Program-made: the position numbers and the translations under genes | The notes under the pieces: generated by a model | The model's database searches: none | What the model was told of the DNA's origin: nothing | Seen by the model: the letters and a program-made list of their open reading frames with translations, nothing else | In this document: piece after piece, positions 34,328 to 59,437 of the stretch | Layout of the letters: each line of letters opens with the position of its first letter | How positions within the stretch are numbered: position 1 is the first letter of the stretch | Source of the DNA: Mesostigma viride | Lineage: Eukaryota > Streptophyta > Mesostigmatophyceae > Mesostigmatales > Mesostigmataceae | Direction of reading: 5' to 3' | Length of the DNA stretch: 64,000 bases | Assembly (NCBI GenBank): GCA_009746045.1 | Contig: RPFO01000199.1 | Span: forward strand, 294,501 to 358,500

Positions 34328-35550
34328 CTATCTGGCGTGCCTCCCGCGGGATTGCACACGCGGGCGCTGCCCCACTGGGGGGGGCTCGTTGTCCTCTATG
34401 ACCTGGGCCCACTTGGCCTTGTCCATCATCTTCTTCCAAATCACGGAGAGGCCTAGGCCCCCCATGTCCTCTACTAGCTGTTCCTTGAAGGTGCGGGCCT
34501 TGCGGCGTCTAACATCACTGGGCCCAGCCCACGTCAGGAGGTGCCGGCCAGGCTGGGCTGGTCGCAGACCTGCGGGGGGGCCACGTGAGGTGTCTACCTG
34601 GTTGGTGCGAGCTAGGTGCCCTACTAGCTGCAGGCGGCGTTGCTTAATGGTGCTGGTGATATAGGGCATGCCCTGGTACAGGTCCTCATTGCGGACATGA
34701 GCAGCATATCCTACTCTGAAAATGGAACGCAGCATGCTGGTGACCGCGCCGTCCAGCTTGCGGGCCAGGTCGGCGGTGAGGGTCCACGTCTCGGCGCCAT
34801 ACGTGAGAACAGGAAGGACGAGGACCTTGAACAGGTCCTGTTTCTCGATCTTGCCCAGGGGCTTACGCCACAGGGCCCGGTACTGGCGTAAAGCGTGCCA
34901 GGCGAGGGAGATGCGATGGTCCACATCCACCTCGCAGCTGGGGAGCAGGCTGCCCAGCAGCTTAACGCGGTCCCGAAAGAGGACTCGAGAGCCGTCTAGG
35001 AGATAGAGGGGCGGAGGTTGGTTGGTGAGCCCAACCGCCAGGGCCTCTGTCTTCTTGCTGACCTCAAGCCCCACTGCACGGGCCTCGAGAGCCAGGCAGT
35101 CAAGCCATGTCTGCACGTGCTCAGTGTCCTCGAAGAGGGTGGTGTCGTCTGCGTAAATGATGTCTGCTAGCCGAATCTCCGTGTCCGCCCCGCCATGCCA
35201 GAATTTGTTAGCAACCTGCACTCCTGGTTCCCTGCCCACAATGCGGGCAAATCGCTTGCGCGCCTGAATCATTACGTATTCGACAACAATAATGAACAGG
35301 TAGGGCGACAGCACGCAGCCCTGCCACACACCCTTCTGTAAAGGGCATGGGGGCGTGGTCCCGTAAGAAGTGCGCACCGAAGTGGTGGACCCTTCATACA
35401 GGTTGCGGATGACAGCAATCAGGGGGCGGGGGATCCGGAACAACTCGAGGATGTCCCAAAGCGCAGGCCAGAAAACCGAATCGAAGGCTTTGATGAAGTC
35501 CACCAGCACAAGGTGCAAAGGGGACTCACCAGGCTGAAGGCGTTGCAGTT
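34328..35550 (-). CDS. LINE-A ORF2 reverse transcriptase, 5'-truncated
   Basis: Copies LINE RNA into DNA at the nicked target. The frame begins at the truncation point and stays open for ~405 codons to the stop near 34328. Motif A is VDFIKAFDSV (about residues 19-28), motif B GVWQGCVLSP (76-85), the catalytic box YADD (135-138), then GLEVSKKTE and VKLLGSLL. The typical LINE segment LPVLTYGAETWTLT follows, then a basic C-terminal region. Missing: the endonuclease, fingers and everything before motif A, so the protein cannot function, although the remaining frame is intact. No real start codon: the first in-frame Met-like codon is TTG. The intact frame implies a recent insertion. Confidence 0.88.
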
Positions 35551-35709
35551 CCCCCAAACCTATGCATCACCTTCGTCCCTAAGTGTTCCCAGACCCACCG
35601 GACAACTTCCCTCCGTCACGGGTGGCGCGGCGCTCCTGGAATTGAGCGCCGCGCCACCGGGGGTCAAACAGTTCGATATATCGAACTGTTTCCGGACTAT
35701 ATGGGTTAA

Positions 35710-50952: not shown

Positions 50953-52557
50953 CTACTGCCAGTGTGAACTCCACTGAGCGGGGGGGAACTCCTCAGCCAG
51001 CAACCACACCCACCGCGGCACTTGCACCGCTAGAGCACGGTGCAGGCCCACGTAGTGGTCCACCGACTTGAACTGGCGCCAACGCCCGCGCTTCTGGATG
51101 TCTGGGAGTGAAACGCCCTGCAGGTAGTCGTACGTTGCCCCACCATGTCGCATGGAGTAGGGCGGAAACATCCCCCGCAGGCCCAGAACATCCCACGCCG
51201 CGTGCCACCGACGAGAGAACTGGCTGTAGTTGAGGCTCCCAAACAAGGGCTCCTCGGGCTCCCGCCCAGCGCACAGGCGCTCGAGCACGTACAGCGAGAG
51301 GGGATCCTGCACCACCACCGCCTGTGCACCCCCCTTGGCTGTCTTGGGATCCCGCAGAAGAAGCGCGCCCAGTCCCCGCTGCCCCAGGCGACGGTCGCCA
51401 CGCAGTGCCACGTCCCCCACTCGGAGCTTGAAGGCCTCCCCGATGCGCAGGTTTTGCTGGAAAATGATGACGCACACGGCTGCTGCCATGGGCGCCCCCT
51501 GCCAGCGGAGGATCTGCACCACCAGGTAGAGCAGCTCCCACGGCACCGGATTGGGGCTATGCGTTTGCACGCGTCGCTGCCACCCGTACAGGAGCCGGCG
51601 GGCCTCGCGCCACGCCTGCACTTGGCTGGGGTAGTACAGTTGCAGCCCACACAGCGCCCTCATGCACATGGAACGCCCTGCTCCCCCTCCATCCTCGTAG
51701 ACAGACACGAGCCACTCGCAGAACACGCTCTCCGCTTCCTCCTGCGGTACAGCACCATAGGGCTCAGCCCACAGGAGGTACGCGATCACTGCGCGATGGT
51801 AGCTGCGCAGGGTCGCGGGCAGCACGGTGCTCTCCAGCAGTTCCTGCCGCCCTCCCGGACCCGGGTTACTCTCCACATCGCCATCGGCGGTAAGGTCCCG
51901 CACCCACCGGCCCCGGCTGGGCGCGTCAGCGGGGTTTCGCTCCGAGCGGATGTACACCCAGTGGTACCTGGTGTTGCTGGCACAGCCCAGGGCGGCAGCG
52001 CGGCGGCACCACGTGTTGAGGCGGTAAGATGATGACCGCCCCTTCACCACTGCCCCCACAACGGCGGTGTTATCCACCAGCCGTACGTGCCGTCGCCCCC
52101 ACCGCGCCCGCGTGCGCAGCCCCCACTCCAGGCTCTGCACGGCTGCGCGCGCCTCTTTCTCATTGATGTGCGCCCCCGCGTCCCTCCACCGGTGTTTCAC
52201 CGCCACACGCCAGCGGGCGGTCGCCACCGCCCGATGTTCCCTCTCCCCCGTTCGCTCCACACCGACCTCTTCCGACCCGACACACAGAGTCTTCCACCCC
52301 TTCATTTCGCGGCAGTTGGACAAAGCCTTCACGTCTGCCTCTGCCAGACGGGCATACACCACACCGGAGCCCCGGCTCGACGCGTCACTGGCCACGACGG
52401 TGGTGTCCAGTGGCTGGTTGCGCTGCGCATGCACCAGGGGAGCCAGGCAGACAGCCGCCCAGAGCTCCCGGCGCACACTTGCCCAGAGTTGGAAGCGTCC
52501 TCCCTTGCGGAGGGCCAGCACTTGGTGGAGCATCCTGTAGGCGTGGAACCAGGTGCT
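50953..52557 (-). CDS. RNase H - 2A - tyrosine recombinase polyprotein segment (older copy)
   Basis: RNase H removes template RNA; the tyrosine recombinase integrates a circular DNA intermediate. Numbering from the Met at 52533 (the frame is open upstream to the split). RNase H: D50 (VVASDASSRGSG), E125/E127 (INEKEARAAV), D154 (RLVDNTAVV), D203 (ERNPADAPSR). DVESNPGP at 219-226 is a 2A motif. Recombinase: core-binding part 236-330, R363 (LRIGEAFKL), K400 region, R462-H463 (YSMRHGGAT), Y494 (VDHYVGLH). The first His of the usual HxxR is Tyr459 here. The frame is intact for 526 residues. The polyprotein was cut from its reverse transcriptase by the insertion at 52561-58719. Confidence 0.88.
   Translation of the reverse strand, partial: STWFHAYRMLHQVLALRKGGRFQLWASVRRELWAAVCLAPLVHAQRNQPLDTTVVASDASSRGSGVVYARLAEADVKALSNCREMKGWKTLCVGSEEVGVERTGEREHRAVATARWRVAVKHRWRDAGAHINEKEARAAVQSLEWGLRTRARWGRRHVRLVDNTAVVGAVVKGRSSSYRLNTWCRRAAALGCASNTRYHWVYIRSERNPADAPSRGRWVRDLTADGDVESNPGPGGRQELLESTVLPATLRSYHRAVIAYLLWAEPYGAVPQEEAESVFCEWLVSVYEDGGGAGRSMCMRALCGLQLYYPSQVQAWREARRLLYGWQRRVQTHSPNPVPWELLYLVVQILRWQGAPMAAAVCVIIFQQNLRIGEAFKLRVGDVALRGDRRLGQRGLGALLLRDPKTAKGGAQAVVVQDPLSLYVLERLCAGREPEEPLFGSLNYSQFSRRWHAAWDVLGLRGMFPPYSMRHGGATYDYLQGVSLPDIQKRGRWRQFKSVDHYVGLHRALAVQVPRWVWLLAEEFPPAQWSSHWQ
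51856..51879 (-). other. 2A-type ribosome-skipping motif (older copy)
   Basis: Codons spell DVESNPGP, matching the 2A consensus D(V/I)ExNPGP, preceded by Gly. Skipping between the last Gly and Pro would separate RNase H from the recombinase. The motif lies 16 residues after the last RNase H aspartate and just before the recombinase core-binding domain, i.e. in a linker. Confidence 0.8.
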
Positions 52558-52560
52558 TTG

Positions 52561-53072
52561 ATTGATCTTACGATCGGGATTCCCTGATTTTGCCTGGGGG
52601 AGCGGAGGGATGGAGGTGCGCCGCTACCTTGGAGGCGCTACACCGTTGCCCAGTGGTGCAAGTCGACATGCGGGAGCCAAACGGGGTGGCCACGCCCTCT
52701 CTGGAGGGTCTGACAGCCTTGGATGGGATGGGCCTCAGATGTAGTTCGAACTAGTTCAAAGTTAGTACAGGTAGTTCAAACTAGTTCAAACGAGTTCAAT
52801 CTACTTCAACTAGTATCCAGGGACCCTCAAGATATGCCAGGTGGTTGCTGAACGGTTCTGGCATGACAGAACATGTGTGACATCATAAAAATGTAGTACA
52901 ATGTTGAAAAAAGTAGTATCAGGGTCCTAGATCTGGTACAGTAGTATTCTGAGGTCATTCTTACATGGAGCGCCGCGCCAGCGGGGCGCCGCACTTGCGT
53001 GTGTCACGGATGCAACGTTGATGCGATGTATTTCAAGGTGGTGATGGCTGCCAAGCCAGCTTATCAGTTTTC
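52561..53072 (+). repeat. Split direct repeat A1
   Basis: 512 bp, matching A2 (58034-58540) apart from a 5-bp difference (atggg) and a few substitutions. It contains a run of agttcaaactagttcaaacg-type words (52740-52812). It probably carries promoter or replication signals. Confidence 0.92.
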
Positions 53073-53313
53073 AACACAACTAGAGCAATACTTCACCGTT
53101 TTTGACAAAGTTGGTGTCAAACTAATCGTGAGACAATAGCCGACAACATTTTGACGGTTTTCGCACCAAGTTTTGACGGGTTTGCGCAACGGGAGTAAAA
53201 GTCCGCAAGGTAGAACTGAGTGACAAATTTTCAGTCCGAAATTTTTCTCAGTCTCCAAGATTGCGGAATATTGAGCCTAGTTGTGAGAAATTTCTTCATC
53301 TTTGAATTCTATA

Positions 53314-54026
53314 ATGGCTAGTGATCACGAAGACACCACCCTTGAGGCAGTAGACCGAGATTTCTTATTAAATGTGAAAAAATCGTATTTTCAGGGGGGC
53401 AAGGAGCTGTTAACGACTTTGAAGTTCTTGACTGAGTATCTCGGTCCAAACTGGGCCCAAAGGCTTACTACTATGTCTGAGGGTCGTTTGACATCCTTGG
53501 GACAGTTTCTCAAGACTGCAGGGCTCCAGATTAGTGAGGGGTCAAGTGATTCCGACATGGGTTCCATGTTGTGCAAGGCCATTACTCTAGAGATGAAGAA
53601 GCCCCCAGTGGCCACTGGGGGCAAGGGGAAGACTGGTCCAGCCAGGGGCGAAAGGACCCGAAAGGATCCTCCCAGCAACGGCACCGACGAGGAAGAGGAG
53701 GACGCGACGAGCTCTGAGGATTTTTTGGACGCGCGCGAGCAGCTGGCCCCTGCTGCTGCTCGCGCCAAGGGAAAGAAGTCTCAGGGCAGGAACCGAAAGC
53801 TGGCAGAGAATGCTGCCCTTCTGGCGGGCGTCCGCGAGCTCATCGGAGCGGAGTTGCAAGCCCTGGCGCGGGGGAAGAGGAGGGACGCGAGGAAAGGGAA
53901 GAGCCAGCGCGAGGACAAGGGGGGCAAGGGCCATCCGAAGAGCAAGCGCCAGGAGAAGAGACGCGCGCGGCGCGGGAGCAGCCCAGGCTCGACAGACACC
54001 AGCAGTGGGAGCGACGAGAGTCGCGC

Positions 54027-54103
<77 letters not shown>

Positions 54104-54844
54104 TCCGACAGCGAGAGCAGAGGCCGTGGCAGGGGCAGGGGTGGCGCTCGGTCGCGCCGCGACAAGTCCCGGGAGCGACGTGGGCATGGCAGGGGCCGTT
54201 CTGCGGAGCCCAAGGGGCGTCGGGATCGCTCCCGCGAGCGTCGCAAGGAGCGGCAGCGGTCCAGCAGCCGGAGCACGAGTCGGGACTCCTCCCAGCGGAG
54301 CTCGCGTCGATCGCGGGAGCGTGTGAGGGAGAGAGACCTGCGCCGAACCACCAAGGGGGTGCGTCTCCCCCGGCGAGCTTTCAAAGTGGCCTGGCGCCTG
54401 TTGGTCAAGGACCGCGACGACAGGGTGCTGCCGCTGCAGGTGCTGGATGCGCGCCAGGTCGCGCACGGGAGCCTGCAGGCCCGCTTGGCCCTTCGCAAGG
54501 AGCAGGAGGGCGTTGGGGCTGCACCGGGAGCCCCCCGCGGGTGGAAGAACAGCACGCACCATCTGGTGTGCAACAACCTGACCTACATTCTGGATGTGGC
54601 CATCCAAGAGCTGGGGGAGGATGTGGTGACGGAGCTGGCCTGCTTCGAGTACCTGGCGCGTGTGGTCGAGGCGTTCCTCATGGTGGAGAAGACCAGCGGC
54701 TGGAACAACGGGGCGATGCACCTGCTGCCACTGGTGGAGGGCAGTACTATTGGAAGCGCAGCAGCCCGGGCAGCGCGGAAGGCGGCTCGCCAGGAGGCGG
54801 AGCTGGCATCGGCGGCGGCGGCGGCGGCCAAAAAGGACAAGTGA
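53314..54844 (+). pseudogene. Retrotransposon Gag-like protein with frameshift in a CAG tract
   Basis: Gag packages element RNA. The ATG at 53314 gives MASDHEDTTLEAVDRDFLLN, a helical N terminus, then acidic and lysine-rich regions. At 54028-54096 there are 23 CAG units. Before the tract the coding frame reads Gln; the downstream coding frame reads Ser, then [16 protein letters not shown] and many RS/SR dipeptides (54100-54330). That means a +1 shift in or next to the tract. The second part continues with VCNNLTYILDVAIQELGED and ends in TGA at 54842-54844. The RS-rich part is probably RNA-binding. Whether the shift is a mutation or programmed is unknown. Confidence 0.6.
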
Positions 54845-56240
54845 GGGGCAGGGGTGTGCTCCCGCTGCCAGTGAAGATGGTCCCCCCGCTCGACCGCAGC
54901 CGCCTGCGATCCAACCGCAGGCTGCAGCGCGCTCTGCGTGCCAGAGCAAGGCTGCGGTGTCAAGAGCGGGCCACAAGGGGCCTGAACTGGCTGTGGGGCA
55001 GGACCCGGGAACGGTCCGGTGGACCGGCGGTGCAGCAGCAGGCTATTACTGCGAGCCCCTGCACCGTCGCCCAAAGGGCCGCCCTACAAGGGATGGAGGA
55101 TGCTGCCCGCGTCTACAACCGCCGGCTTACCGCCGTAGCGGAGGCGACAGACACGGGGGACGCAGAGCCCGCGCCATACGGGCCGGGCGGTCAATACGAA
55201 ATTATTGACCCGGAGAGGCTGGCACTGCCAAAAGGAGGAGCTGCAGGTAGTGTCAAGCTGCTGGACTGCCTGCCGGAGGCATGGCAGAGGACGTATGAGG
55301 ACATAAACAACATTCTACAAAGATGCGACGCGGAGGCGGGGGCGTGGATGCGGCGGGGCCGGGTGTCTCATGGTTGTGCAAGCGATGCGGCGTACGCACG
55401 ACTGAGCATCAGGCTGGCGGAGACGCGGATGATCGAGTACAGTGAGGAGGCGCCGCCTGTGGTGAACGGCTGTTTTGCCGTCCCCAAGAAAGACCCCGGG
55501 GTTGTGGAGCCCAGCGAACGACGAGCGGTTTATAGGGAATATGGTGCCGTGCAACCGGCGCTTCCTCAAGCCGCCTACCTGTTACCTGCCTAACTTGGGC
55601 GAGGTCGCTGAGCTGAGTGTGGGGGCGCCATGCTATTCGGGCAAGACAGACCTTGACACCTACTATTACCGGTTCGAGGTACCTGAGAGCTGGCGCCCCT
55701 ATTTCTCGCTGCCCCCCGTGTGGTCCGATGAGGTCGGCCAGCTGGGACGACGGCGAAAGTTGTACCCCAGGTTCCGGGTCCTTGTCATGGGCTGGAGCCA
55801 CTCGGTGGTCCTTGCACAGGTTGCCCACCTGCACTGTCTCTACGGGGCGGGAGTGCTCGATGCCAAGAGAGGGCTGTCATATCCCATGCACTTGATGGGG
55901 GTGCGCACAGTGCGCGGGGATGGCATGGACCGGCTGGAGTTGGTGGAGAGCGCGGCCAGTGCAGCGTGGCGGCTGCTGCCGGAGGATCCCCCACATCCCG
56001 CTCAGCTGGTCATGATCGATGATCTGGGGGTCACCCATGGGCGGAGCGCGGAGGAAACCAACGCCGTGCTCACCAAGGCGTGCGAGGAGAGCTACGGTCC
56101 CAAGGGGTTGGTGGTCAACGAGAAGAAGGTGGAGAGAGCTGAGGAGGGGCGCCCGGTGGAAATCTTGGGGATTGAGTTCTGCCAGGACGGGTCCATGCGG
56201 CCGAGCGCGGCCCGGATGGCGGCCTTGGTGCGCGACACGC
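54845..56240 (+). pseudogene. Reverse transcriptase of the younger retrotransposon, frameshifted
   Basis: First frame: basic region, YGPGGQYEIIDPERLALPKG, LPEAWQRTYEDINNIL, then PPVVNGCFAVPKKDPGV, the start of the fingers. At about 55500 one extra base shifts coding to the next frame: SPANDERFIGNMVPCNRRFL, KPPTCYLPNL, TDLDTYYYRFEVPESWRPYF, FRVLVMGWSHSVVLAQVAHL, and the catalytic LVMIDDLG with Asp codons at 56018-56023. It ends in VEILGIEFCQDGSM. After about 56240 some 70 codons present in the older copy (ASYHELASLLGRW onward) are missing and the frame changes again. Two lesions make it inactive. Confidence 0.8.
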
Positions 56241-57818
56241 GAGCTCCAGGCTGCAATGGACTTGGCCCCGCTGGTGCATGCGCAGCGCGACCAGCCCCTG
56301 AGCTGCACCGTGGTGGCCACTGATGCGTCAACCCACGGTTCTGGGGTGGTGTACAGCCGGTGGGAGGCGCCTGCGGTGCGTGGCCTGTCCAACTGTCGGG
56401 AGCGAAAGGGCTGGAAGACGCTCTGTGTGGACTCTGAGACGGCCAGCGTGGAGCGCACAGGGGAGATTGAGCACCGAGCCATGGCAGCGGCGCAGTGGAG
56501 GACCGCTCTTGCCCACCGGTGGCTCGATCCCTCGGCCCACATCAACGAGAAGGAGATTCGTGCGGCTGTGCAAGGGATCGAGTGGGGCCTGCGCTCACAG
56601 GTTCACTGGCAGAAACGTCACGTGCGGCTGGTGGACAATTCGGCAGTTGTCGGTGCGCTCGTCAAAGGGCGTTCGTCGTCCTACCGGCTGAACGCCTGGT
56701 GCCGCCGGGCGATCGCGCTAGGGCTGGCCAGCAACACCCGCTACGACTGGGTGTATGTGAGGTCGGAGCGCAACCCGGCCGACGCGCCCAGTCGTGGTCG
56801 ATGGGTGCGCAACCTCACTGCGGATGGTGACGTGGAGAGCAATCCGGGGCCACATGGGCGGCAGGAATTGCTGGAGGCCACTGTGCAGCCCAGCACGCTA
56901 GCTGCATATCACCGAGCGCTGAGGGCGTACGTGGAGTATGGTCAACCCCTCGCTCCCGTGGCCAAGACGGAGGCGGAAGGCGTCTTTTGTGAGTGGCTGG
57001 TCAGTGTGTATGAGGAAGGGGGAAGCCGGACCATGGTTGTGCGCGCATTATGCGGGCTGCAGCTGTACTTCCCCAACGAGATTAAGGGGTGGTACGAGGC
57101 GCGTCGCTTGCTGGCCGGCTGGGCGCGACGATTTCCCGTGCAGAGCCCTCACCCCGTCCCGTGGCAGCTACTGTACCTCGTGGCAAACATTCTTCGTGCA
57201 CAAGGCTCGATATTAGCTGCCTGCTGCTGCATCATTGTTTTTCAGCAATACTTGCGCATCGGAGAAGCGTTCAAGCTTCGCGTGGGGGACGTGGCTCTGC
57301 GCGGGGACTTCAGCCTGGGGCCCAGTAACCAGGGTGCGCTGCTGCTACGCGACCCCAAGACAGCCAAGGGCCAGGCCCAGGCAGTGGTGGTTGTTGAGCC
57401 CCTTTCACTCACGTTGCTTGGCGCCCTGTGTGCTGGGCGGGCGCACGAGGAGCTGCTCTTTGGCGCACTCAGCTACAGCCGTTTCTTGCGGCGGTGGCAC
57501 GCCGCCTGGGACCTCCTTGGCTTGCGGGGGATGTTTTCACCCTACAGCATGCGCCACGGGGGGGCCACCCATGACTACCTGCGCGGGGTACCAATCGCGG
57601 ACATCCAAAAGCGTGGCCGGTGGCGCCAGTTTTCGTCCGTGGACCATTACGTGGGGCTCCACCGCGCCCTGCAGGTGCGGGTGCCCCAGGTGGTGTGGGA
57701 CCTCGCGGGCAGACTGCCCCCCGTGACTGGCGTCGTCACTTTGGGCCGTAGATTTCGGCAAAACTTCGGTGAGGCGCACTCTAGCGGACACGCTAGGGCT
57801 TCACCAGCTGGAGGGTAA
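56241..57818 (+). CDS. RNase H - 2A - tyrosine recombinase polyprotein segment (younger copy)
   Basis: The frame runs from the deletion point at about 56241 (LQAAMDLAPLVHAQRDQ) to the stop at 57816-57818. RNase H motifs: VVATDASTHGSG, NEKEIRAAVQGIEWGL, RLVDNSAVVGAL, ERNPADAPSR. DVESNPGP is at 56829-56852. Recombinase motifs: LRIGEAFKLRVGDV, LLLRDPKTAKG, PYSMRHGGAT, KRGRWRQF and SVDHYVGLH with the catalytic Tyr. All catalytic residues match the older copy. A longer open frame from ATG 56019 overlaps the reverse transcriptase out of phase and is not the real start. The C terminus is longer than in the older copy. Confidence 0.85.
   Translation, partial: ELQAAMDLAPLVHAQRDQPLSCTVVATDASTHGSGVVYSRWEAPAVRGLSNCRERKGWKTLCVDSETASVERTGEIEHRAMAAAQWRTALAHRWLDPSAHINEKEIRAAVQGIEWGLRSQVHWQKRHVRLVDNSAVVGALVKGRSSSYRLNAWCRRAIALGLASNTRYDWVYVRSERNPADAPSRGRWVRNLTADGDVESNPGPHGRQELLEATVQPSTLAAYHRALRAYVEYGQPLAPVAKTEAEGVFCEWLVSVYEEGGSRTMVVRALCGLQLYFPNEIKGWYEARRLLAGWARRFPVQSPHPVPWQLLYLVANILRAQGSILAACCCIIVFQQYLRIGEAFKLRVGDVALRGDFSLGPSNQGALLLRDPKTAKGQAQAVVVVEPLSLTLLGALCAGRAHEELLFGALSYSRFLRRWHAAWDLLGLRGMFSPYSMRHGGATHDYLRGVPIADIQKRGRWRQFSSVDHYVGLHRALQVRVPQVVWDLAGRLPPVTGVVTLGRRFRQNFGEAHSSGHARASPAGG
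56829..56852 (+). other. 2A-type ribosome-skipping motif (younger copy)
   Basis: DVESNPGP is conserved exactly between the two copies, although flanking residues differ (GGRQELLES versus HGRQELLEA just after it). Conservation of the motif in a linker suggests selection. Confidence 0.8.
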
Positions 57819-57885: not shown

Positions 57886-58030
57886 GGGTCAAGTGGAAGC
57901 GGCGGCCAGGGACTGCCAAAAAATATTTTATGTCTCTCTGTCTACTAAGTCCGGTCGGCTTCAACATATAGTGTAATAAACAAGTTCTGGTGCCCTTCAA
58001 CCAGAAGTGGACCTAGGCAATGCACAGTGG
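57886..58030 (+). repeat. Split direct repeat B1
   Basis: 145 bp identical to B2 at 58575-58719 except for about one base. It follows the recombinase gene directly and abuts A2 through the spacer atg. Confidence 0.92.
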
Positions 58031-58033
58031 ATG

Positions 58034-58540
58034 ATTGATCTTACGATCGGGATTCCCTGATTTTGCCTGGGGGAGCGGAGGGATGGAGGTGCGCCGCTAC
58101 CTTGGAGGCGCTACACCGTTGCCCAGTGGTGCAAGTCGACATGCGGGAGCCAAACGGGGTGGCCACGCCCTCTCTGGAGGGTCTGACAGCCTTGGATGGG
58201 CCTCAGATGTAGTTCGAACTAGTTCAAAGTTAGTACAGGTAGTTCAAACTAGTTCAAACGAGTTCAATCTACTTCAACTAGTATCCAGGGACCCTCAAGA
58301 TATGCCAGGTGGTTGCTGAACGGTTCTGGCATGACAGAACATGTGTGACATCATAAAAATGTAGTACAATGTTGAAAAAAGTAGTATCAGGGTCCTAGAT
58401 CTGGTACAGTAGTATTCTGAGGTCATTCTTACATGGAGCGCCGCGCCAGCGGGGCGCCGCACTTGCCTGTGTCACGGATGCAACGTTGATGCGATGTATT
58501 TCAAGGTGGTGATGGCTGCCAAGCCAGCTTATCAGTTTTC
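58034..58540 (+). repeat. Split direct repeat A2
   Basis: 507-bp partner of A1. The start (attgatcttacgatcg) is identical to the element's left end. Confidence 0.92.
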
Positions 58541-58574: not shown

Positions 58575-58719
58575 GGGTCAAGTGGAAGCGGCGGCCAGGG
58601 ACTGCCAAAAAATATTTTATGTCTCTCTGTCTACTAAGTCCGGTCGGCTTCAACATATAGTGTAATAAACAAGTTCTGGTGCCCTTCAACCAGAAGTGGA
58701 CCTAAGCAATGCACAGTGG
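58575..58719 (+). repeat. Split direct repeat B2 (right end of element)
   Basis: 145-bp partner of B1. A 34-bp C-rich then T-rich spacer (58541-58574) separates it from A2. Confidence 0.92.
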
Positions 58720-58722
58720 AAG

Positions 58723-59437
58723 CAGACTCCTGCGCAGCAGTTGGATCCATACCCAGCGTCCCAGTAGGGAGGCCAACTCATGGTAGCTTGCACGTCCCCG
58801 GGCCAGCACCGCCTCGGTGTCGTGGACCAGGAGGGCCAGTCGCTTCGCCGACGGCCACAAGCTCCCATCTTGGTGAAACTCGATGCCCAGGATCTCAACA
58901 GCTTGACCTTCCCGCGCCCGCTCGACCTTTTTCTCATTCACCACCAGGCCAGCTGGCGCGTAGCACTCGGTGCATGCGCGGTCCAGCAGCGCGTTCGCCT
59001 CCGCTGCGCTGCGCGCGTGTGTGGTGCCCAGGTCGTCAATCATGACCAACTGCGTCGGCCGAGAAGGGTCCTCGGGCAGCAGCTGCCAGTCAAGTTCGGA
59101 GGCCCCCACCAACTCCATCCACTCCCGTCCTCCCTCACGCACTGTGCGCACCCCGAGCTGATGCATCGGGACGCTCACACTCAGCCCGGGGTTCAGCTTC
59201 CCCGGCCCAAACAGGGTCTGCATGTGCGCCACCTGCGCCAGCAGGACCGAGTGAGACCACCCCATCACCAGAACACGGAACCTGGGATAGAGCCGGCGGC
59301 GCTCCCCGGGCTGGCCGACCTCGTCCGACCAGACTGGGGGCAGCGCGAACCACCCCCGCCACTCCGTTGGCACGGAGAAGCGGTAGTAGTACGTCTCCAG
59401 GTCCGTTTTGCTCGAGTAGCTGGCCCTAAGCACACCT
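58723..59437 (-). pseudogene. Reverse transcriptase of the older retrotransposon, truncated
   Basis: The minus-strand frame begins at about 59437 with SYSSKTDLETYYYRFSVPTE, then FRVLVMGWSHSVLLAQVAHM, the catalytic LVMIDDLGTTHARS, GLVVNEKKVERAREG, VEILGIEFHQDGSLWPS, and the connection ASYHELASLLGRWVWIQLL, ending where the younger element is inserted. Everything before the YYYRF segment is lost, so the copy was already truncated or rearranged at its 5' side. Across the insertion it joins in frame to QSTWFHAYRML at 52557, whichever three-base spacer is used. Confidence 0.82.

Follow-up and report, generated by a model that had tools for sequence, protein, structure and literature searches.

A StopGo-type sequence between RNase H and tyrosine recombinase in retrotransposons of the alga Mesostigma viride

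According to a 2026 survey (PMC12846837), StopGo (2A-type) sequences occur for the most part in viruses, although hardly at all in those of plants. Among mobile elements, the PAT superfamily has split direct repeats in the order A1-B1-A2-B2, carries a methyltransferase domain in pol and is similar to DIRS1 except at its termini, while Ngaro elements are without methyltransferase and usually without overlaps between open reading frames (ORFs), as described elsewhere (PMC3266345). In an overview of DIRS1, the ORFs are separate or overlapping. Here, we describe a stretch of 64,000 nucleotides from the alga Mesostigma viride (assembly GCA_009746045.1, contig RPFO01000199.1, positions 294,501 to 358,500 of the forward strand), hereafter the window, with two copies, A and B, of a mobile element. 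Its domains and split direct repeats identify it as a tyrosine-recombinase retrotransposon, and it encodes a StopGo-type sequence between RNase H and tyrosine recombinase (YR).

APE-type non-long terminal repeat (non-LTR) retrotransposons reportedly have 2A-like sequences as well, to judge by the title of Odon et al. 2013. Our element shares with these a 2A-type sequence in a retrotransposon protein but differs in having a tyrosine recombinase and split direct repeats. With viral StopGo sequences (the DLTxDG and RDLTxE classes and Omono River virus), it shares the NPGP core, the stretch WV(R/K)DLTx[acidic]G, the offset of one residue between classes and a location between proteins in one frame. 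In contrast to the viral sequences, those described here are in algal retrotransposons, between RNase H and YR, and H at motif position p14, which is rare in viruses, is their commoner form by pattern count. Like PAT-like and Ngaro elements, ours combines reverse transcriptase (RT)-RNase H and YR with split direct repeats (copy B) and shows no target-site duplication, but its YR lies in the RT-RNase H frame and a StopGo-type sequence joins them. Among the papers listed in searches of the open literature, which does not extend to subscription journals, none describes 2A sequences joined with tyrosine-recombinase retrotransposons. Elements of this kind may be included in Rao et al. 2025 (Cell Rep 44:115822), which reportedly surveys the 2A sequences of eukaryotes and viruses.

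The motif at the RNase H-recombinase junction

Both window copies alike encode WVR(D/N)LTADG-DVESNPGP between RNase H and YR:

51856 to 51906, minus strand: StopGo/2A-type sequence of copy A, WVRDLTADG-DVESNPGP (from sequence)
56802 to 56852, plus strand: StopGo/2A-type sequence of copy B, WVRNLTADG-DVESNPGP, in which skipping is predicted between the final Gly and Pro (from sequence and the published upstream class)

In copy A, the motif WVRDLTADGDVESNPGP (51906-51856, minus strand) lies within the ORF 50953-52533, and in copy B, the motif WVRNLTADGDVESNPGP (56802-56852, plus strand) lies within the ORF 56019-57818. The order in both is NPADAPSRGR (the end of RNase H, as identified by motif), the StopGo-type motif and the YR domain. 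An earlier note on this DNA had reported DVESNPGP in the RNase H-recombinase linker of both copies, which the ORFs and their translations confirm, and an exact D(V/I)ExNPGP core, which holds in copies A and B and in a further subfamily, C. It had also spoken of two copies of a DIRS/PAT-type element. Both do carry the motif, but they belong to different subfamilies (72% identical), B is nested in A and neither is intact; as a refinement, the repeats of copy B are split direct repeats.

Since a bare NPGP pattern proves nothing, the weight of the evidence lies with the longer motif, its location and its conservation. In the 2026 survey (PMC12846837), motif 4 is DLTxDG with D at p12 and S at p15, and motif 1 is RDLTxE with G at p12 and P at p15; the two share WV(R/K)DLTx[acidic]G, offset by one residue, and their representatives are nearly 100% active in lysate. 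The same survey gives H at p14 as rare in viruses and >95% active. Subfamily A is an exact motif 4 (WV(R/K)DLTxDG, p12 = D, p15 = S), and B is close to it, with N in place of D. Two further subfamilies introduced below, E and F, are motif 1 (RDLTxE, p12 = G, p15 = P) except for p14 = H and combine p14 = H with p12 = G. The reading of the linker as a 2A-type sequence, proposed in the earlier note, is thus supported also by the published upstream class (motif 4), of which that note had made no use.

When a profile of seven subfamilies was compared with all Protein Data Bank (PDB) sequences, a chain of Omono River virus came first (E 3.6e-6), aligned at GWVRDLTEEG-IEPNPGP and KKDLTKEG-VEPNPGP, with integrases next (E 0.015 to 0.34). 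Two 2A-like motifs have been described for Omono River virus (PMC7968656).

Subfamilies and constraint

We searched the same assembly (440 Mb, 2243 contigs). It encodes a RuBisCO large subunit of green type, with 1gk8 (Chlamydomonas) as its best PDB match; since some contigs also have bacterial-type integrases, it is an assumption that the plastid contigs are those of the host. With the copy A protein as query, 83 places were found: 47 belong to A (93-100% identity), 35 belong to B (71-72%), and the last is a fragment of 20 residues. Copies inside one subfamily are near identical. The pattern DVExNPGP has 177 matches in the genome versus 0 for the reversed pattern, and 30 loci taken from these matches, and thus selected because they match, comprise 18 of A/B type and 6 that belong to a third family of recombinases (C), the other 6 having no recombinase. 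A search with family C gave 128 places, of which 23 were typed C and the remainder are 61-75% identical; the two read among the latter, L066 (subfamily D) and L069 (D'), both encode DVHPNPGP. Family E was among the 150 scored places of an integrase search, and its representative (L067) reads WVRDLTAEG-IHPNPGP, with the core GIHPNPGP, while family F (L068) reads WVRDLTREG-VHPNPGP, with the core GVHPNPGP. The core named in the earlier note therefore has to be refined for relatives, because D, D', E and F carry HxNPGP instead of ExNPGP. Genome-wide, (G/D/E)(V/I/M)HxNPGP has 809 matches versus 1 for its control, the recombinase context being established for the four that were read (L066-L069). By pattern count, p14 = H is thus commoner than E in this genome (809 vs 177). 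In all, A, B, C, D, D', E and F make up seven YR subfamilies, 42-75% identical, with the motif at the same junction.

DVExNPGP is found also in ORFs without recombinase (L032, L039, L040, L041, L053, L054, L064 and L065), which read (K/R)DLT(K/A)DG-DVE(S/A)NPGP downstream of a common WRALSRKN stretch. On C2011 and C1532, perhaps contaminant or organelle contigs, there are four strong matches to PF00589 that look bacterial (E 1e-44 to 1e-22).

The 30 A-type loci that were fetched contain 31 junctions, of which 30 read DVESNPGP and the remaining one DVESNLGP. Relatives with the flanking domains but without the motif, which the earlier note had named as evidence that would speak against a 2A function, were looked for inside the same genome. 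Wherever the listed pattern matches reach (100 places per pattern), all places listed keep the motif, 44/44 for A/B, 18/18 for C, 18/18 for D-type and 20/20 for E-type, the scored places being the best ones, so that decayed copies are under-represented in these counts.

Across the seven subfamilies, the W, LT, G and NPGP columns are invariant, and the linker has insertions on both sides of the motif and varies in length. Subfamilies A and B have 13 residues in common over 14 motif columns, with 7 synonymous changes; for D and D', the figures are 14 of 14, with 11 synonymous changes, and for E and F, 11/13, with 9 synonymous changes. Five more distant subfamily pairs that were counted have 8 to 12 motif residues in common. 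When the three sister pairs are pooled, 38/41 motif residues are kept versus 1216/1724 elsewhere in the protein (Fisher p 0.0006). Taken pair by pair, the excess over the rest of the protein has p 0.038 for A/B and p 0.017 for D/D', and it is not significant for E/F by itself (p 0.26).

In a subfamily tree built from 257 columns with the motif left out, D/D' group with C and E/F with A/B (splits 96-100). Since p14 is H in D/D', E in C, H in E/F and E in A/B, the placement of these states on the tree needs at least two E/H changes at p14.

Predicted release of the recombinase and its alternatives

By these sequence tests, the motif is a StopGo signal. We consider it very likely that this signal, in the RT-RNase H-YR frame, separates the recombinase from RT-RNase H, skipping being deduced from assays published for viral members of these classes. 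In Chlamydomonas, the 2A sequence of foot-and-mouth disease virus (FMDV) is processed (PMC3427385), which speaks for this reading as well. The nascent ...WVRDLTADG-DVESNPG in the exit tunnel would block the last Gly-Pro bond, RT-RNase H would be released, and translation would continue from Pro to give the recombinase as a protein of its own. In this way, a single frame would probably give rise to two enzymes, as opposed to the separate or overlapping ORFs of the DIRS1 overview; that their separation is needed for recombinase function we infer only. If true, this would place another class of mobile element, in an algal genome, among the natural users of StopGo, and it would explain how a tyrosine-recombinase element makes its recombinase out of the pol frame. 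The seven subfamilies, with a homologous site, both upstream classes and either E or H at p14, would then offer a natural mutational series for exit-tunnel contacts.

Several observations weigh against this interpretation. The bare NPGP pattern (11 bases) is observed 2 times in the 64-kb window versus 1.61 expected, which is not significant. Three subfamilies are close but imperfect class members, C reading WRRDLT (R in place of V) and D and D' reading PDLTRCG. DIExNPGP has 0 matches in the genome, and the 2 matches of G(V/I)ExNPGP, one of them inside a C-type place (C1835), are background when set against 1 for the control and were not taken as a class. The Omono River virus match is made up of two short stretches, the better of which has E 0.001 by itself, and a profile of A, B and C found neither Omono River virus nor a recombinase in the PDB. 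All motif-bearing members come from one genome, where copies are non-independent and the counts consequently overstate the evidence; outside it, tblastn found no relatives in viral contigs or in bacterial or archaeal genomes.

The alternative that survives best is a leaky signal, which would leave some RT-RNase H-recombinase fusion beside the separate proteins, with a use for the fusion such as bringing the recombinase to complementary DNA. We regard this as unlikely, but it has points in its favor: the relatives read keep all three domains in a single open frame, sea-urchin proteins provide a described case of leaky StopGo in which both products are of use (PMC12846837), and FMDV 2A in Chlamydomonas left a minor band of uncleaved green fluorescent protein (GFP) fusion (PMC3427385). 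Set against these is the nearly 100% efficiency in lysate of viral members of the matching classes (PMC12846837). It is much less probable that the motif serves only as a structural linker or is recognized by a protease or binding partner, the protein remaining a fusion or being cleaved post-translationally. A mechanism does not follow from conservation alone, and other stretches of the protein, e.g., GRSSS..LN, are equally conserved; however, the conserved positions here are those of StopGo, including the one-residue class offset and p14 = H, and p14 has changed between E and H at least twice with the rest of the motif kept. A word resembling NPGP that arose by chance in a GC-rich linker and was then spread by transposition might account for the number of bare NPGP patterns and for the near identity of copies within a subfamily, but it has next to no probability in view of the same junction in seven diverged subfamilies, the synonymous codon changes and pattern controls of 0 (vs 177) and 1 (vs 809). 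On these controls, the conserved columns and the synonymous changes, both the chance and the pure-linker readings were rejected.

Release of the recombinase by StopGo, which we prefer to these alternatives, may have a wider meaning, and we lean slightly toward it. A whole clade of tyrosine-recombinase retrotransposons would free its recombinase by StopGo as standard, and the signal would have diversified here as in RNA viruses, with both offset classes, at least two E/H switches at p14 and hundreds of HxNPGP copies. The WVRDLT cassette in common with a totivirus-like virus would then suggest either that viruses and retrotransposons have exchanged the signal or that they have converged strongly on identical contacts in the exit tunnel.

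Architecture of the window copies and of intact relatives

Copy B is inserted within copy A, and neither is intact, since B has its RT in another frame than its RNase H and A is interrupted by B. Apart from the two motifs, their features are as follows:

50953 to 52558, minus strand: copy A left of the insertion, with RNase H, StopGo-type sequence and recombinase (ORFs, Pfam, comparison with copy B)
52559 to 53025, plus strand: direct repeat A1 of copy B (repeat comparison)
53302 to 54841, plus strand: copy B, region of ORF1 (gag position), divided between two frames and containing a CAG/AGC run (ORF reading; no Pfam match in the relative L062)
55475 to 56323, plus strand: RT region of copy B, motif MIDDL, in a frame that differs from that of RNase H (IDDL invariant in A, B and C; no Pfam match)
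56253 to 56801, plus strand: RNase H region of copy B, motifs TDAS, HINEKE, RLVDN and NPADAP (read from sequence; acidic residues invariant in seven subfamilies)
56850 to 57818, plus strand: tyrosine recombinase of copy B, which would begin at the Pro of NPGP (PF00589, E 5.6e-7, above cut-off)
57886 to 58031, plus strand: direct repeat B1 of copy B (repeat comparison)
58032 to 58493, plus strand: direct repeat A2 of copy B (repeat comparison)
58575 to 58720, plus strand: direct repeat B2, the right end of copy B (repeat comparison; boundary from empty site)
58721 to 59425, minus strand: copy A right of the insertion, an RT fragment with an approximate outer end (by-eye comparison with L063; empty site)

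The repeats of copy B, in the order A1-ORFs-B1-A2-B2, are 99-100% identical over the reported stretches. The PAT-type arrangement A1-B1-A2-B2 is present in both copy B and L062, with the same spacing of 689. DIRS1 is characterized by inverted terminal repeats and internal complementary regions; copy B has direct repeats at its termini, and the repeat comparison, which had a minimum length of 40 and which shorter repeats would escape, gave no inverted pair inside it. To recognize the empty site, we used a flank word that occurs in 18 fetched loci. One of these, L001, is the locus of copy A and continues into copy B; the 17 others read GCTT-AGCAGAC uninterrupted and represent the empty site. Comparison with these 17 loci revealed no target duplication at the insertion of copy B. 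No methyltransferase was matched by Pfam in the elements, though Pfam also misses their RT and RNase H.

The recombinase is above the curated cut-off of PF00589 in copy B, L062, L066 and L067 and below it in copy A (1e-4) and L063. Its motifs RHGGAT, GRW and the Tyr in HYVG/RYIG, which we take to be the catalytic R, R-H, W and Y, are present in A, B, D and E. For RNase H, Pfam gave only a weak, below-cut-off match to a viral polymerase C-terminal family, and the RT of the copies and relatives has no Pfam match. Both were identified by motifs, IDDL for RT and, for RNase H, acidic residues in TDAS, HIN.KE, RLVD and PAD; these do not vary wherever they could be aligned.

A single open frame spans RT, RNase H, motif and recombinase in L062 (B type, 1102 codons) and L063 (A type, 909 codons). 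The frame is open across RNase H and YR in L062, L063, L066 and L067, while L061 and L068 have frame shifts inside YR. In Ngaro elements, the recombinase is in a separate ORF, a layout that does not fit the four relatives with recombinase in frame with RNase H.

ORF1 of L062 is a single open frame of 508 codons with a shorter CAG/AGC run; unlike it, the ORF1 region of copy B (53302-54841) changes frame at a long CAG/AGC run. The RT-RNase H-YR frame of L062 (L062:2016-5321) differs in phase from ORF1, whose end it overlaps, and its first Met is residue 155. Because of this overlap and this late Met, the start of the frame may need frameshifting or some other device.

The A/B-type elements are clustered, with 82 places on 25 contigs, one cluster per contig and a span of 0-169 kb (e.g., C1480:2260802-2369986, C1391:754352-832590 and C1579:2619508-2734369), unlike the C, D and E types, which look dispersed. 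This pattern resembles centromere clusters, which are known for DIRS-1 of Dictyostelium. Long arrays of a 40-nt tandem repeat lie beside a C-type element (L061:5203-7501) and in L064. Elsewhere in the window, an ORF on the minus strand (34328-35557) encodes an RVT_1 domain (E 1.4e-15), the reverse transcriptase of another type of element.

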